From positions 434,001-498,000 of the forward strand of contig JAIXUN010000003.1 of NCBI GenBank assembly GCA_027483535.1: a stretch of 64,000 nucleotides of DNA, given 5' to 3'. Positions 22,084-29,479 of the stretch are shown here, one piece after another; within the stretch, counting starts at the first letter, position 1, and the number at the start of each line of letters is the position of its first letter. Source of the DNA: a bacterium. Its GTDB lineage: Bacteria; Armatimonadota; Fimbriimonadia; Fimbriimonadales; Fimbriimonadaceae. A program made the translations under genes and the position numbers. A model generated the notes under the pieces. That model did not search any database, was not told the origin of the DNA, and saw only the letters and a list, made by a program, of their open reading frames with translations.

Positions 22084-22629
22084 ATGCAGTTGTTCCCGGA
22101 TCGATCCGTGCTGGTGCTCGTCGACCTTCAGCCAAAGTTCATGGCGGCGATCCACGAAGCCGACCGGGTGATGAACCGGAGTCTCTTTCTTGCCAAGGTG
22201 GCGAAGCTCCTAAACATTCCGGTGCTGGGCACCGTCCAGAACCAAGCCCGCATGGGCGGCCTGGACGAGGCGTTCGGTGAGATCTGCCCTAACCCCTTCG
22301 ACAAAATGACCTTTTCCTGTACGGAGAATGCGCCGTTCTTTACGGCTTTGGAAGGTCTGGAACGGTCTCACGTGGTTTTGGTGGGGGTGGAAACCCACAT
22401 TTGCGTATCGCTCACCGCTCACGGCTTGTTAGGGGCGGGTTACCAGGTGGTGGTTTGCCCAGACGCGGTTTCTTCGCGAACGCAGGATCGGCACAAGCTG
22501 GGCATGGAACGGATTCGCGACGCGGGAATCACCCCGGCGCACACCGAGGCCGTGGCTTACGAATGGTTCCGTGACGCGGCTCGCCCCGAATTCAAAGCGT
22601 TCCTCGAGATCGTGAAATCCCACCCCTAA
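22084..22629 (+). CDS. Isochorismatase-family cysteine hydrolase
   Basis: A 181-residue cysteine hydrolase of the isochorismatase/nicotinamidase superfamily, nearest in style to the YcaC-like group. The catalytic Asp is in VLVDLQPKFM (Asp14), the Lys candidate is in the NPFDKMTFSC segment, and the nucleophilic Cys is in VGVETHICVS (Cys107) after the cis-peptide region. Substrate cannot be read from the sequence. A TAAACT 6 nt before the ATG suggests a leaderless transcript. The gene ends 10 bp before the remnant of an MFS transporter 3' end, which marks the start of the accessory region. Confidence 0.8.
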   Translation: MQLFPDRSVLVLVDLQPKFMAAIHEADRVMNRSLFLAKVAKLLNIPVLGTVQNQARMGGLDEAFGEICPNPFDKMTFSCTENAPFFTALEGLERSHVVLVGVETHICVSLTAHGLLGAGYQVVVCPDAVSSRTQDRHKLGMERIRDAGITPAHTEAVAYEWFRDAARPEFKAFLEIVKSHP

Positions 22630-22636
22630 CCTAACT

Positions 22637-22830
22637 CTAGGTAGCGGTTGAGAAGTGGGGATTCTCGGCGGGCATCTCCTCTTCCTTGACCGGCAGTTCT
22701 GGCATCGTCATCGCGATGAGGATCGCCGGGATATAGAGGAAGCCAACAAAGTAGAACGCCTTGCCCGGATCGATGGTCCCGGCGGCGGGTGCGACCGAAA
22801 GGAACGCCGTCGTAGTACATTCAACATCCG
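22637..22830 (-). pseudogene. Truncated 3' end of an MFS transporter gene (copy A)
   Basis: This minus-strand stretch encodes GTIDPGKAFYFVGFLYIPA and the following C-terminus of an MFS transporter, ending ENPHFSTAT and a TAG stop. It is a second copy of the end of the intact MFS gene at 26426-27742. Beyond 22783 the reading frame passes through TTTAFLSVAPAAG, which resembles the internal AAAFFGLGV of the intact protein; about 50 residues appear to be deleted between the two parts. No start or upstream membrane segments remain. It marks the left boundary of the restriction-modification insertion. Confidence 0.75.
22640..22783. repeat. 144-bp direct repeat, copy A (MFS 3' end)
   Basis: Aligned without gaps to 26450-26593 it shows 8 mismatches in about 144 bp (~94% identity). 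Similarity stops exactly at the stop codon of the transporter on one side. Confidence 0.92.
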
Positions 22831-23069
22831 CCCCATGGCCATACACCATTGAACGAGTGATGGAAGATTCAGCGCCCTTTGGTAGTATGAAGGTGAAGCA
22901 CTGGGGTTGCAGCTCTGAAATCAAGCAGCATAAAGACCTCAACGCGATGGCTTGTTCGACGGGAAGCACGATGAGGCAATGCGGTTCCAGGTCTTGAAAT
23001 GACGCTTTGTTCGACAGATTGTTGATTGAAGACTGCTTCTGGGACTTAGGTATGATTGTATGGACTATA

Positions 23070-23098
23070 TTGACATTTGTGATGATGTATGATAGTAT
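23070..23098 (+). promoter_or_regulatory. Promoter of restriction-modification operon
   Basis: A perfect TTGACA (23070-23075), a 17-nt spacer, then TAGTAT (23093-23098). It sits 14-25 bp before the methyltransferase start candidates in an A+T-rich stretch. Confidence 0.6.
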
Positions 23099-23123
23099 TT
23101 TATAGAACATTATGGAGCTAGGC

Positions 23124-25094
23124 ATGAAGGAGCATCATCAGCTGCGTCTTGAACTTCTCTCTGACGAACCAGAACCAGCCCATGGGGTGTGGCTAGAAGA
23201 CTTGGGCAAGTTTCTGAAGATCCAGACTCATGGCGCTTGGCCTGATCAATTTGGCGATGCAATAAGGGAATGGTTCGACACTCAATACGATTCGCCAATA
23301 CGCACATTGAGTCTATTCAGTGGTGCAGGAGGACTTGACATCGGCTTCCATGATGCAGGGTTCAACATCGTCGAGATGGTCGAAATCGAAAGTCAATTTG
23401 CATCTACACTCAAGGCAAACACGCTCGTAGCTGGCCGATTGAAAGGAGCGAAGGTTAATTGTATCGACATTCGAGAGTATGTTCCGCCTAATGATTTGAC
23501 AATCGATTTCATCATAGGTGGACCACCTTGTCAAACATTTTCAGCCGCAGGGCGAAGAGCGGCTGGCGTAAAAGGTACTAGCGACGCGCGCGGGGTTCTG
23601 TTCCAAGAGTATGTCCGAATCCTTGAAGCACTCAATCCGAAAGGATTTCTCTTCGAGAACGTCTACGGGATTACGGGCGCAAACGGAGGTGCAGATTGGA
23701 AGGAGATTCAAAGGTGCTTTGCAGAGGCTGGGTACGATCTCTACTATCGCGTCCTTGATGCGGCCGATTACGGCGTTCCGCAGCACCGGGAGCGACTGAT
23801 CATCGTAGGGGTTCGCAAGGGTGACGCGCCGTTCCACTTTCCTTCTCCAACGCACGGCCCGGATTCTCCCGATCGGGCACCGTATTACACTGCTCAGCAA
23901 GCAGTTTACGGCGCCCAGATAACGAATGAAGATTCCCTAGGAATAAAGGGACGATGGGGGCATTTAATCGATGGAATTCCCCCAGGGTTGAACTATTCCT
24001 TTTACACAGCTGAAATGGGACACCCTCGTCCCGTTTTCGCTTGGCGATCAAAGTTTTCAGATTTCATGTACAAGGCTGACCCTGAAATGCCTGTTCGAAC
24101 AATAAAAGCACAAGGAGGACTCTACACCGGACCATTCTCATGGGAAAACCGGCATTTTAGTTCTTCAGAGCTTAAACGCCTGCAGACATTTCCAGACGAT
24201 TACAACATATGCGGTTCCCGAGGGGAAAGAATCAAGCAGATCGGAAACTCTGTACCGCCCCAATTCGCACGTGTATTGGCACTAGCGGTAGCTACGCAGC
24301 TTTTCGACAGGAAACTTCCAGTTCCAATCCCACTAATGCACCCGTCAAGTCAATTAGGGTTTCGAACTAGAAAACGACAACTAAGCGCACGATACTCGAG
24401 AATTGCCAAGAAAGCGATTAGTACACTTCCCGATTCTCAAACAGCGGCAAAAGAACGAGAATTGTCGCATGAATACCAAGCTTTTCTCAGTAAATCTTTC
24501 GACTTCAATTGCAAGGAAAACCATGATAGTGCTAAATTTAAAGTAATCCAAAGAATTAATCAGGAGTTCTTGGAACTACAGTGTATTCAAGATTCTCGTC
24601 CTGTTGCGACATCCCACTTTCAGCTGGACATCGTTCCATCAGGTACTGGATGGGTAATCCCTTTGCAAAGTATTATCGCGCAGGGTTTCGATCTCAGTCC
24701 CGAAACGTTTACAGCAACATGGAAAGCAATTGAACGTGCAGTGTTCGACGCTTACGATATTGATGATCTTGTGCAACTGTGTGGTTACTATCAATATCAA
24801 CCACGCTTCCGAGCTAGCTTGAAGCTTCCTTCGTACGAAGACCCACTTTGGAAGATTGTCAGTCAAATAGTTTCTGGTGAGGGTGTAGGGAGACAACTAT
24901 TTATTGATGAATATGCCGCCTTGTGGGGAGTTGACGAAAGAAGAGCGGTGGAGGTAATGCATTTCCTGAGAATCCTCGGGTTTGAAGTTCGGAATCATAA
25001 CACAAACCCGCAGATTGCTGATGGGAGATTCCTTGTGCCATACGGATTCCCAACGCTGACGAGCAGAAGCGTGCAGTTGCGTAAGGTGCTGTAA
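23124..25094 (+). CDS. DNA cytosine-C5 methyltransferase with long C-terminal extension
   Basis: The modification enzyme of a restriction-modification pair. Motif I is LSLFSGAGGLDIGF near residue 62, motif IV GGPPCQTFSAAGRR near 133 with the catalytic Cys, motif VI FENVYGI near 175, motif VIII QHRERLIIVG near 225, and motif X QIGNSVPPQFARVLA near 375. The usual enzyme would end near residue 390. About 250 further residues follow with no motif I recognise; they may bind the partner nuclease or DNA. GGAG precedes the ATG at 23124; the ATG at 23112 is an alternative. A+T-rich codons and the repeat boundary mark it as transferred. The nuclease gene follows 31 bp later. Confidence 0.92.
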   Translation: MKEHHQLRLELLSDEPEPAHGVWLEDLGKFLKIQTHGAWPDQFGDAIREWFDTQYDSPIRTLSLFSGAGGLDIGFHDAGFNIVEMVEIESQFASTLKANTLVAGRLKGAKVNCIDIREYVPPNDLTIDFIIGGPPCQTFSAAGRRAAGVKGTSDARGVLFQEYVRILEALNPKGFLFENVYGITGANGGADWKEIQRCFAEAGYDLYYRVLDAADYGVPQHRERLIIVGVRKGDAPFHFPSPTHGPDSPDRAPYYTAQQAVYGAQITNEDSLGIKGRWGHLIDGIPPGLNYSFYTAEMGHPRPVFAWRSKFSDFMYKADPEMPVRTIKAQGGLYTGPFSWENRHFSSSELKRLQTFPDDYNICGSRGERIKQIGNSVPPQFARVLALAVATQLFDRKLPVPIPLMHPSSQLGFRTRKRQLSARYSRIAKKAISTLPDSQTAAKERELSHEYQAFLSKSFDFNCKENHDSAKFKVIQRINQEFLELQCIQDSRPVATSHFQLDIVPSGTGWVIPLQSIIAQGFDLSPETFTATWKAIERAVFDAYDIDDLVQLCGYYQYQPRFRASLKLPSYEDPLWKIVSQIVSGEGVGRQLFIDEYAALWGVDERRAVEVMHFLRILGFEVRNHNTNPQIADGRFLVPYGFPTLTSRSVQLRKVL

Positions 25095-25125
25095 CGAACG
25101 CCGACGGAGTAGGGTGGATACAAAA

Positions 25126-26433
25126 ATGAGAACGAGAGAGGAGTATCATCTACGGGTATTCTCGGGGCGCAGTGTGTTAATAGTGCCCGATGGGCGCGTG
25201 GAAGAGTTTGCCGAGGGGAAACCTTCGGCCGATGCGAAAGCACGGTACGCTAAGATTCGGGAGGCCCTCGAGCAGGGGTTTCTCGTCGATGAAATCAGAG
25301 GATGTAAGTCGGCGCCAGGTGCCAGTTCAGGGGACTTGTTGGACGCTCATTATAAACAATGCCTCAAATCCATTGTTTCAAGTGTAACGTCAGAGGTTGG
25401 CCGCGCTCTCGTGGGTCTTACAGTTCTACAGCTTGTCGTTAAGGCTATTGAACCTTCTCAGAGTATTCGATTGCATAAAGGTGGTAGCGGCGAATTTAGT
25501 TGGAAAGAAGGGATATCGATGCGTTCGTTAGATGCGGGGTACATTTCGCCTACTCTCCGAGATGAAGGATTGCTGAAACTCAATAAATTTGGGTTCATGA
25601 TGACGCGGAGTTTAGCTGAGAATTATCCATATTCGAAAGTCTATAAGGCTGCACTGAAAGGAGCAAAGGATGAGTGGGCGGAAATAACGGATGCACTTGA
25701 AGAGGGCCGGTTATCTCCTGTAGAGTCTCTGCGGTTTATGCTAGGCCTTTTAATTAACAATGCTGAGTACTTCAACACGCTGGCTGACGAAGCACTTGAA
25801 AAAACCGAAAGCTCGATCGAGAGTGGCGGGTTGTCTGATGTTGCTAGTGTCTTGGACCTTATGTTGCGACATATCGAGATAGCCGACTACAAAGCGCGAA
25901 TTTTTGAATTGCTACTGCATTCTTACTATCAGGCTTTGGAGGACCTGGGAGTATTGCATGAGGGTTCGCTGAAGCCGTTATCACAGATGAGGTCAGCAAA
26001 CAAAAAACACGGGAACATTGGTGACGTTGAAGTTTTCGATGGCAAGGTGATCGTAGAAGCTTGGGATGCGAAGTACGGCAAGCCTTATCTACGTGACGAG
26101 CTTGAGGAGCTTAGTGATAAAATTATCAACCATCCCTTAGTGCAGAAAGTAGGTTTTGTCTGTTCCGGTAATCCAATACGTGATGATGAAATTAAGACAA
26201 GAGTGGCTGATATAGCTTCTGTTACGGGAGTTTCGATTCAGTTAGTCTCGGTTTGGGAGTGGCTTGAAGCTAACCTAGCTCAGTTGATTGGTTGTGATGT
26301 TAAGCCTTCTGATCTTGGCAGGGCGTGGGTGAGAGCCTACGTCCAGTCTCTATCGCAGCAACGTAGAGAGAAAGCGCCCATAGATGAGCCTTGCCAGCAA
26401 TGGTTGGAAGCTTGGCTTAAGGTAATCAGTTGA
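25126..26433 (+). CDS. Predicted type II restriction endonuclease (PD-(D/E)XK-like)
   Basis: The likely cognate nuclease of the adjacent cytosine methyltransferase. I do not recognise a named enzyme family. The segment GDVEVFDGKVIVEAWDAKYG (near residues 305-325) has the order expected of a PD-(D/E)XK core: an acidic residue after a turn, then Glu-x-x-D-x-K at the end of a strand. Upstream is a mostly helical region that could read the target. The position directly behind the methyltransferase on the same strand is the classic arrangement. I choose the ATG at 25126; GTG 25114 is possible. The stop overlaps the 3' end of the convergent MFS gene by 8 bp, which is the right junction of the insertion. 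Confidence 0.72.
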   Translation: MRTREEYHLRVFSGRSVLIVPDGRVEEFAEGKPSADAKARYAKIREALEQGFLVDEIRGCKSAPGASSGDLLDAHYKQCLKSIVSSVTSEVGRALVGLTVLQLVVKAIEPSQSIRLHKGGSGEFSWKEGISMRSLDAGYISPTLRDEGLLKLNKFGFMMTRSLAENYPYSKVYKAALKGAKDEWAEITDALEEGRLSPVESLRFMLGLLINNAEYFNTLADEALEKTESSIESGGLSDVASVLDLMLRHIEIADYKARIFELLLHSYYQALEDLGVLHEGSLKPLSQMRSANKKHGNIGDVEVFDGKVIVEAWDAKYGKPYLRDELEELSDKIINHPLVQKVGFVCSGNPIRDDEIKTRVADIASVTGVSIQLVSVWEWLEANLAQLIGCDVKPSDLGRAWVRAYVQSLSQQRREKAPIDEPCQQWLEAWLKVIS

Positions 26434-27742
26434 CAGGAGTAGTTGGACTGGTGGCGGTTGAAAAGTGGGGATTCTCGGAGGGCATCTCCTCTTCCTTGGT
26501 CGGCAGCTCTGGCATCGTCATAGCGATGAGGATCGCCGGGATGTAGAGGAAGCCAACAAAGTAGAACGCCTTGCCCGGATCGATGGTCCCGGCATAAAGA
26601 GTGCCTCCCGCCGCCACCAATCGACCCGCGTTGTAGCAGAATCCCGCGCCCGTGGTCCTCAGCAGAGTGGGGAAGAGGGGCGGGAAATAAAGCGGGAACG
26701 ACGCGAATACGCCCAGACCAAAGAACGCCGCCGCGTTGATCCACATCTGCGATTCTGGAATGCTGCGAGGAACCGAGAATCCGTAAATGAACACCACCAG
26801 CGCCGCTGCGAGCATCACCACAAAGCCTTTTCGGTAGCCGATCCACTTAGTGAGTCCGGCCGCCGCGAAGTTACCCACGATGTTCCACAGGGTGTACACG
26901 GTTACCATTCCGCTCACCATGGCGGTGAGGTTGGACGGGTTCATCGTGGCGGCGTCGGGGTGCTTTCTCACCAACTGAGCCGCAAAGTAAAGAATGGTCC
27001 AGGCTCCGCAGAGGCAGATGGACGAGAGCCCGAGAACCTGCCAGGTGGTTTTGCGGACCTCTGGACCAAAGAGCGCGCTGAGCTTGGGGAGTTCCCGCTT
27101 GCTGGCCTCGTTCGCCCACTCTTCCGGCTCGGGAACGGCTTTTCGAATCCACAGCGTGAGCAGCGCGGGCACCACGCCCACCACAAACACCCACCGAGGG
27201 TCCATGCCTCGGAACAGGTTGACGGTTTGCGCGGCGAGCAGCATGCCCGTCATGTATCCGGATTGCAAAAGCGCGCTCGCCCAGTGTCGATACTTCGGAG
27301 GAAGGGTTTCGCTGACCAATGCCGATCCTGCCGCCCATTCGCCCCCGATTCCGAGTGCGGCAAGGAACCTTAGGATGAGCAGGTGCCACCACTGACCCGC
27401 GAGCGCGGAGAGTCCGGTGAAGATGGCGTAGGTGAGAATGGTGAGATTGAGGGTTTTGGTTCGACCCAGTTTGTCGCCGATCCTGCCAAAGAACGCTCCG
27501 CCAAACGCCCAGCCAACCAAGAACACCGCCTGAATGATCGCCGCCTTTTGGCTCACTTGGGGGTCGGTGGGTTGCAGGCCCATCAACTGCGCCACGAAGG
27601 GTAACGCCACCAGGGTGTAAAGGAATCCGTCTAGGCCGTCGAACGCCCAACCTAGCCAGGCGGCTAAGAACGCCAGCCCGGGTCTTTGCTTGGGCTTTTC
27701 GGCTGCGGTCGCGGTTACGGAACTCCCTGGCGTCGTCGACAT
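26426..27742 (-). CDS. MFS transporter (metabolite:H+ symporter-like)
   Basis: A 438-residue, twelve-span major facilitator. The signature between spans 2 and 3 is GRIGDKLGRTKTLN, and span 4-5 holds GIGGEWAAGSALVSETLP, a hallmark of the metabolite:H+ symporter group that includes sialic-acid and aromatic-acid carriers. The substrate is unknown. Its last 48 codons are duplicated at 22640-22783, but here the terminal TAG seen in the other copy is replaced and seven new codons (SPTTPVN) lead to a stop inside the end of the nuclease gene. The transporter is therefore intact except for a changed tail. Confidence 0.87.
   Translation of the reverse strand: MSTTPGSSVTATAAEKPKQRPGLAFLAAWLGWAFDGLDGFLYTLVALPFVAQLMGLQPTDPQVSQKAAIIQAVFLVGWAFGGAFFGRIGDKLGRTKTLNLTILTYAIFTGLSALAGQWWHLLILRFLAALGIGGEWAAGSALVSETLPPKYRHWASALLQSGYMTGMLLAAQTVNLFRGMDPRWVFVVGVVPALLTLWIRKAVPEPEEWANEASKRELPKLSALFGPEVRKTTWQVLGLSSICLCGAWTILYFAAQLVRKHPDAATMNPSNLTAMVSGMVTVYTLWNIVGNFAAAGLTKWIGYRKGFVVMLAAALVVFIYGFSVPRSIPESQMWINAAAFFGLGVFASFPLYFPPLFPTLLRTTGAGFCYNAGRLVAAGGTLYAGTIDPGKAFYFVGFLYIPAILIAMTMPELPTKEEEMPSENPHFSTATSPTTPVN
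26450..26593. repeat. 144-bp direct repeat, copy B (within MFS gene)
   Basis: The coding copy of the repeat that bounds the restriction-modification module; the two copies differ at 8 positions, two of which change amino acids (V/T and A/S). Confidence 0.92.
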
Positions 27743-28068
27743 GGTTGGGAGCCATTATGCCACCGAGTTGTAGGTGTGGAAAGAGGAACAAAGCTCATCG
27801 GTGGATGAGATACTCGGGCCCAGGGCGTCGAGAGCGAGAGGCAGTCCAAGCGAAAAAGACGGAGATATCCAAAATTTTTTCCTCTATTCTCTAGAATCAG
27901 TGAAGGAATGTCCGCTCATCGAAATAAATATATAGTACGATCAGGCAGTTGAAGCTGCCTCGGCAAGCCTGGGATCATTTCTGAACAAATCGTCAGTGGG
28001 GACCCGAGGTTCGAATCCCTCAGTTACTAGGTTGATACCAACGTCGGGATAACACAGTGGGATTTCAA
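27743..28068. other. Intergenic region upstream of small-protein cluster
   Basis: No ORF is convincing here. The first 40 bp hold the 34-bp repeat C. An A+T-rich stretch around 27870-27945 includes AAATATATAGTACG, a plausible promoter for the cluster to the right. At about 28007-28022 GGTTCGAATCCC resembles a tRNA T-arm, but the stem does not pair well and no other tRNA part is present. Confidence 0.5.
27749..27782. repeat. 34-bp direct repeat, copy C
   Basis: Matches 29446-29479 with three mismatches and shares CCACCGAGTTG and AGGTGTGGAAA. It begins 7 bp upstream of the MFS start codon. A shorter GAGTTGTAGGT also occurs in the repeat block at 34.59 kb, so it may belong to a dispersed intergenic family. 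Confidence 0.75.
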
Positions 28069-28287: not shown

Positions 28288-28415
28288 TTGATGTTGATGT
28301 TCGCATTAGAGATGCAGATTCTGATAGGCCGCCAGTTAGTTTCAGGTTAGGAGAGAGTTTGGTTGCCGAGAAAGGCGGTGTCAGTGCTGGTGTCGGTGTC
28401 GGAGTCAAGTTCTAA
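28284..28415 (+). CDS. 43-residue hypothetical protein, translationally coupled
   Basis: A tiny ORF beginning MIDVDVRIRDADSDRPP and ending in a Gly-Val-rich GGVSAGVGVGVKF. It has no membrane span or signal peptide. Support comes from its location: its ATG overlaps the stop of the preceding gene and its own stop overlaps the ATG of the next, so three frames are chained with no gap. I do not recognise the family. Confidence 0.6.
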   Translation: MIDVDVRIRDADSDRPPVSFRLGESLVAEKGGVSAGVGVGVKF

Positions 28416-29428
28416 TGGTTTCCATAACAAGCACGTTATTTGTGCTAATTGTATTGCCTTGTTATAGTGGATCCTCGTACAGCTTAAACTCCTCAGACGG
28501 ATTAGCCCCATATACTGTGCCTGTTCGAGTAAACGGCAAAGAGGTAGAGGCGATCATCAATCTTTCCGACCGCTATACTTTTGTACACCCCAGCTTGGTC
28601 ACCGAAGTGATTGGCCAAGATGAGATCGTAAATGCTCAAGTGGAAGCTTTCGGTATCAAGAATGATCGATTGATTTGCAGAACGGATGGGTTTACGACAC
28701 CGAGAATGATTTCTCTTGGACGCGAGTTTTTCAAAGGAAGAACTCTGAAATGGGATATTCCAAATGCTCGGCTGACTGTAAACGAAACAGCCGAGCCCCT
28801 TGAGAACGGTCGCAAGTTCGACTTCGAAACCGGACAGTACAAGGTAGGTGCGGCGACGATCTTTCTTCCTATTCTCTCGCCCTGCAACTCGATTCCTTTT
28901 GGTGCGCCACTGAAAAGGGGATTTCAGTTCTTTAACACCGATGAACGTAGATCGGAAACCCGCGAGAATGTCTTCTATGCGTTCGAGTTATTTGGAAGCA
29001 TGCAGGTAGGTGCGCCTACGAAACTCTTCGATATTGAGTTTGCCAATAAAGGATGGGAACAAGGGATATTTTATCCGGGGGCAATTTTCTTTGGTGCCCA
29101 ATTAGTAAAGATCGACTTTTCCTCGATGTCAATTGAATACCTAGAGGATTCTATCCTTAAAGGTGTTCAATTGTTAGCCTTGCGTCTTAATTCCAATCTA
29201 GAGCTAAAGGAAAACGGCTTGGTCCTGAGGTCTGGAGCTAACAAGCAGATAGATCAGTGGTTTCGATCCAAAGGTGTCGTTGGACTCCGTGTGAAAAGGA
29301 TTGGGTCTTTGTCTGTCGACCCCGCAAAGCTTGGAGATTTTGACTATCTCTTGTCACTATTGCGTGAGCTAGAATCGGGTGTGTCGGTTGTGTTTACAGA
29401 TGGGTCTAAGGATGTCGTTATTGGGTAA
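28415..29428 (+). CDS. Exported protein with degenerate retropepsin-like fold
   Basis: A 337-residue protein with a signal peptide (MVSITSTLFVLIVLPCYSG). Residues 33-60, TVPVRVNGKEVEAIINLSDR followed by YTFVHPSLV, read like the first lobe of bacterial aspartyl-protease-family proteins, where the sequence is normally VPVxVNGxxVxFLVDTGA. Here Asn-Leu-Ser stands in place of the catalytic Asp-Thr-Gly, so no protease activity is expected. A second half (about 170-270) may repeat the fold. The assignment rests on pattern only. The ATG overlaps the stop of the 43-residue ORF. Codon use is A+T-rich compared with core genes. Confidence 0.6.
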   Translation: MVSITSTLFVLIVLPCYSGSSYSLNSSDGLAPYTVPVRVNGKEVEAIINLSDRYTFVHPSLVTEVIGQDEIVNAQVEAFGIKNDRLICRTDGFTTPRMISLGREFFKGRTLKWDIPNARLTVNETAEPLENGRKFDFETGQYKVGAATIFLPILSPCNSIPFGAPLKRGFQFFNTDERRSETRENVFYAFELFGSMQVGAPTKLFDIEFANKGWEQGIFYPGAIFFGAQLVKIDFSSMSIEYLEDSILKGVQLLALRLNSNLELKENGLVLRSGANKQIDQWFRSKGVVGLRVKRIGSLSVDPAKLGDFDYLLSLLRELESGVSVVFTDGSKDVVIG

Positions 29429-29445: not shown

Positions 29446-29479
29446 GAGTCATTACGCCACCGAGTTGCAGGTGTGGAAA
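29446..29479. repeat. 34-bp direct repeat, copy D
   Basis: Partner of the repeat at 27749-27782 in the same orientation. The two bracket the three chained genes between them. Confidence 0.75.

Follow-up and report, generated by a model that had tools for sequence, protein, structure and literature searches.

We found that, in a genome of the phylum Armatimonadota, a predicted Type II restriction-modification module sits at the 3' end of an MFS transporter gene, with one copy of that 3' end on either side of it. The DNA analysed, a stretch of 64,000 nucleotides (hereafter the window), belongs to a 3.77-Mb genome of 4 contigs with 99% completeness. Here we show the anatomy and gene content of the insertion, its recurrence, and the empty sites of two analogous insertions. 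We consider it fairly probable that the module, without a recombinase of its own, entered the MFS 3' end by homology-facilitated illegitimate recombination, and that the incoming DNA brought an allele of this end with it.

Duplicated 3' end of the MFS gene

The two copies form a gapless direct repeat of 144 bp with 8 mismatches (94%). Copy A, the displaced MFS 3' end, lies at 22640-22783 and copy B, which is used by the full-length gene, at 26450-26593, both on the minus strand. The repeat corresponds to the MFS 3' end up to the last sense codon, and no similarity was found beyond either edge of the copies. All 8 mismatches fall within the 94 bp closest to the stop codon, and the remaining 50 bp are identical. 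In the 10 kb searched, the second-best repeat was 34 nt long; a 94% repeat of 144 bp is far outside chance.

The homology halts immediately ahead of the TAG of copy A (22637-22639, minus strand). This stop codon is 7 bp from the stop of an isochorismatase-family gene (22084-22629, plus strand; PF00857, E = 4.8e-25), the native neighbour distal to the insertion. The full-length MFS gene (27742-26426, minus strand; 438 aa; PF07690, E = 4.9e-24) has, in place of the TAG, the seven codons SPTTPVN and a TGA, supplied by the module (26426-26449, minus strand), and the TGA end overlaps the final 8 bp of the nuclease ORF. The first-pass annotation had described the gapless copies with their 8 mismatches, the end of homology at the TAG, and the seven extra codons with a TGA inside the nuclease end; repeat search and inspection of the sequence confirmed each of these. 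Since the stop of copy A is 7 bp from that of its neighbour, the native state of the site would have been an MFS gene ending near the isochorismatase gene. Same-genus relatives have MFS homologues with 53-66% protein identity, but in other contexts, and the isochorismatase-MFS adjacency is not common to them.

Two further features adjoin the MFS copies. An open 162-aa ORF on the minus strand (22637-23125) joins the leader of the module to copy A; it is a chance chimera, which automatic annotation pipelines would probably report as a gene. A 34-bp direct repeat (91%) has one copy just upstream of the MFS gene (27749-27782) and the other 1.7 kb away (29446-29479). This pair encloses an A+T-rich stretch with a 337-aa ORF (28415-29428) that has no family match, and may represent a second insertion, on the 5' side of the same MFS gene.

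Gene content of the module

The module between the copies occupies 22784-26449 (3,666 bp, about 3.67 kb). Its G+C content is 0.479 versus 0.572 in the flanks, in agreement with an earlier remark that it is A+T-richer than its surroundings. According to the ORF list and the family search it holds two genes only, and no site-specific recombinase is encoded among them. The leader from copy A to the first gene (22784-23111) is without a match elsewhere in the genome, where no further copy of the module was found either.

The first gene (23112-25094, plus strand; second ATG at 23124) encodes a C5-cytosine DNA methyltransferase of 660 aa (PF00145, E = 8.8e-63; TIGR00675), with a long C-terminal part that is common to its homologues. 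The second gene (25126-26433, plus strand) encodes a putative restriction endonuclease. It had no family match in Pfam, NCBIfam, PADLOC, PHROGs or PDB sequences, and the fold search alone identified it as a nuclease. Twenty homologues align over the full length, and D300, E302, E311, D314 and K316 are invariant. The resulting motif, D300...E302...E311-W-D314-A-K316 (D...DAK), is by alignment the pattern of PD-(D/E)XK nucleases. The structure model has a mean pLDDT of 85 and matches EcoT38I, a Type II restriction endonuclease (PDB 7edb, 7e8r), with a Foldseek E-value of 7.6e-8 (7edb) and a VIA Z-score of 22.7 over 342 residues (rmsd 4.3), whereas the next unrelated rows have Z-scores of 9.2 or lower. 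The match to EcoT38I covers the fold over its whole length, although the sequence identity is only about 14%. Thus, the module is a predicted Type II restriction-modification system composed of a C5 methyltransferase and an EcoT38I-like nuclease.

The two enzymes form a conserved pair in cyanobacteria and in a few other phyla, including an Anaerolineae MAG and a Bacteroidetes MAG. At three Armatimonadota loci (L084, L085 and L086), homologues of the EcoT38I-like nuclease are encoded without an adjoining recognisable methyltransferase of the window's kind, and at L074:4685-7233 the nuclease gene occurs twice in tandem, in diverged copies, after a single methyltransferase gene.

Recurrence at other genes

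At locus L083 of genome G208, which has the closest homologue of the enzyme pair within Armatimonadota, a 119-bp stretch from the 3' end of a homoserine dehydrogenase gene is present in two identical copies, one on each side of the pair. The copy in the full-length gene is followed by TGA and the other copy by TAG. The same anatomy is therefore found at the MFS gene in the window and at the homoserine dehydrogenase gene in L083, so one kind of module lies at two unrelated genes. The search for the module beside other genes with similar duplications, proposed in the first-pass annotation, thus had a positive outcome. At both inner module edges of L083 (L083:3739-3790 and L083:7285-7320), there are short imperfect palindromes that resemble a repeat dispersed over the contig (GGGGCGCGATGCATCGCGCCCC).

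We then surveyed 97 other C5-methyltransferase loci in Armatimonadota (1.24 Mb) for repeats of at least 70 bp and at least 88% identity with a gap of 0.8-6 kb. Such repeats directly flank the enzyme genes in 5 of the 97 loci, and one further pair is non-flanking. A set of 31 control regions spanning 0.47 Mb contained one qualifying pair. Given two non-flanking pairs over a combined 1.7 Mb, controls included, we estimate that about 0.2 flanking cases would be expected by chance.

Three of the five are clear cases at the 3' end of a protein gene: an FAA hydrolase gene in L147 (93 bp, 100%), an ABC transporter gene in L163 (182 bp, 97.8%; NgoMIV-family enzyme, PF09015, E = 3.9e-108) and a cyclase gene in L120 (316 bp, 97.8%). 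In L186, whose surroundings are phage-like, the duplicate spans a gene end and the beginning of the gene that follows, and it departs from the stop-codon pattern. The repeats of L180 (82 bp, 90%) are two tRNA-Arg genes with compensated anticodon stems; this locus is ambiguous and was not counted as a clear case. Between these tRNA-Arg(CCT) genes, whose stem differences are compensated, a methyltransferase is paired with an HNH nuclease (L180:3098-5905). L179 was rejected, its repeats being a pair of tRNA-Val genes 11.7 kb apart.

Outside this survey, none of 31 loci of the enzyme family from a wider search, mostly cyanobacterial, has flanking repeats. Further members were found in 1 of 400 genomes sampled from the phylum of the Anaerolineae locus and in 4 of 386 sampled from that of the cyanobacterial locus, likewise with no flanking repeats.

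Empty sites

Uninterrupted sites were found in relatives for two of the analogous insertions. For L147, the sister species G130 and G129 have the FAA hydrolase gene and its downstream neighbour contiguous, with the 93-bp segment present once. When this site is aligned to each side of the insertion, the two alignments have exactly this segment in common; compared with the empty site, nothing is lost and exactly one segment is duplicated. For L120, G140 and G142 show an uninterrupted site with a single copy of the cyclase end. These empty sites therefore prove insertion with long target duplication in Armatimonadota. Together with the recurrence in L083, they support the earlier proposal that the module was inserted at the MFS 3' end with duplication of that end.

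The empty sites also tell which copy is native: in L147 and L120 it is the distal one, which runs on directly into the downstream gene. At L163, TAA, the stop found in the relative G117, is retained at the distal copy, and the full-length gene has TAG. The distal copy of L120 carries a frameshift, as expected for a dead remnant.

Route of insertion

The preferred reading may be outlined as follows. An MFS gene ending 7 bp from the isochorismatase gene would be the starting state. The Type II module, consisting of the C5 methyltransferase and the EcoT38I-like endonuclease genes, would then enter at the MFS 3' end; having no recombinase of its own, it would arrive on DNA that brings an allele of this end along with it. 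One junction would be made by homologous crossover within the MFS gene, and the other by an illegitimate join inside that gene, 144 bp ahead of its stop. The old MFS end would stay behind as the duplicate, that is, copy A would be the displaced native end, and the full-length gene would now read through copy B and stop inside the end of the nuclease gene. Such an insertion would be tolerated because the target gene survives, and afterwards the restriction system may resist loss.

That the incoming DNA carried its own allele of the target had been suggested in the first-pass annotation, and the nature of the copy differences gives some support to this idea. The changes are synonymous at 5 of 8 sites in the window and at 4 of 4 in L163; the combined 9 of 12 differs from the neutral expectation of about 74% non-synonymous changes (P = 5e-4). 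Mismatches that are mostly synonymous suggest two alleles that diverged while both were functional, which favours incoming DNA with its own allele of the target end. The bias, seen in 12 changes, would however also be partly expected if copy B alone had stayed under selection. A donor genome with the module beside the same MFS allele was not found.

The chief alternative, to which we give roughly a one-in-four standing, is break-induced duplication of the target, in which the copies were identical at the start and diverged later. It is the published model for restriction systems (PMC3874152), there is also an enzyme-attack hypothesis (PMC11708052), and the FAA hydrolase site, where one segment is doubled and nothing is lost relative to the empty site, agrees with it. 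The copies in L083 and L147 are 100% identical, which speaks for this alternative, but identical copies fit plain target duplication and allele import alike. The mostly synonymous changes in the window and L163 are unlike drift in a dead copy. The position of the duplicates also argues against it: relative to the coding end or stop, the gene-distal end of the duplicate is at 0 bp in the window, 0-1 in L083, 0-2 in L163, +7 in L147 and +11 in L120, whereas random break points should scatter rather than end 0-11 bp past the stop in five protein-gene cases.

This clustering of duplication ends at gene stops is suggestive, but five cases, from the window, L083 and one survey, are too few to make it a rule, and L186 departs from it. 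Selection for an intact target would demand only that the duplicate end at or past the stop. It is rather doubtful that recombinase-less restriction modules prefer the 3' ends of arbitrary genes, with a block ending at the stop codon, as a dedicated route that spares the target.

The resemblance to integrative elements that restore the 3' end of their target gene, raised in the first-pass annotation, was not supported. An integrase-type element that depended on an integrase supplied in trans and used the gene 3' end as its attachment site would explain flanking 3' ends and a restored target that resemble attL and attR. Site-specific integrases, however, use one fixed site, whereas the enzyme pair has another target gene in L083, and three more genes are the sites of other restriction modules. 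As the same annotation had stated, no phage-type integrase was found in the window, and the three PF00589 matches of the genome are all on another contig. The module ends show no terminal inverted repeats beyond the shuffled expectation. The lack of such repeats and of a nearby integrase argues against a transposon or integrase mechanism, and we regard mobilisation in trans as improbable.

Still less credible is the reading that a tandem MFS duplication left a remnant here and that the restriction genes came in separately. Part of one gene is indeed present twice, but copy A breaks off at 144 bp, flanking repeats are far commoner around methyltransferases than around other DNA, and two complete tandem MFS genes, named earlier as the refuting case, were seen in no relative examined. 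Direct repeats may generally mislead assemblers, but an assembly artefact is hardly conceivable here, given copies that differ at 8 sites, a genome of few contigs and high completeness, and the same pattern in independent assemblies.

Comparison with known systems

How restriction systems without a recombinase spread is a long-standing question, and a little-studied phylum now provides several independent insertions, two of them with empty sites. A rule and a route, both open to testing, are suggested by them: gene 3' ends would be duplicated up to the stop codon, and the neighbour's allele would be imported along with the module. If true, the stop-codon rule would account for tolerated insertions in compact genomes, where intergenic gaps are a few bases.

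Insertion with long target duplication was reportedly proposed from Helicobacter genomes. For restriction-modification genes it was described by Nobusato et al. 2000 and Furuta et al. 2010, as recounted in other articles (PMC3874152, PMC3031569 and PMC1643837). The insertions described here resemble it: the restriction genes lie between direct repeats on the order of 100 bp that derive from the target, they have no recombinase linked to them, and at two analogous loci relatives show an empty site. Since its anatomy matches this published form, the insertion in the window belongs to a known mode of entry. It differs in the Armatimonadota host, in a duplicate that is a gene 3' end stopping at or just past the stop codon, and in that the copies, as in the window, can differ mainly by synonymous changes.

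The preferred route has its own precedent in homology-facilitated illegitimate recombination (PMC3240628), which was proposed for the displacement of T6SS effectors in Vibrio (PMC5361080). In both, homology would anchor one side, an illegitimate join would form the other, and the old 3' part would be left downstream. In the Vibrio case the effector is displaced and immunity genes remain, whereas in the window a restriction system is carried in and its target remains intact. New relative to these systems are the Armatimonadota insertions themselves, together with their empty sites, as well as a bias towards the 3' ends of genes and a hint that the module is accompanied by an allele of its target.
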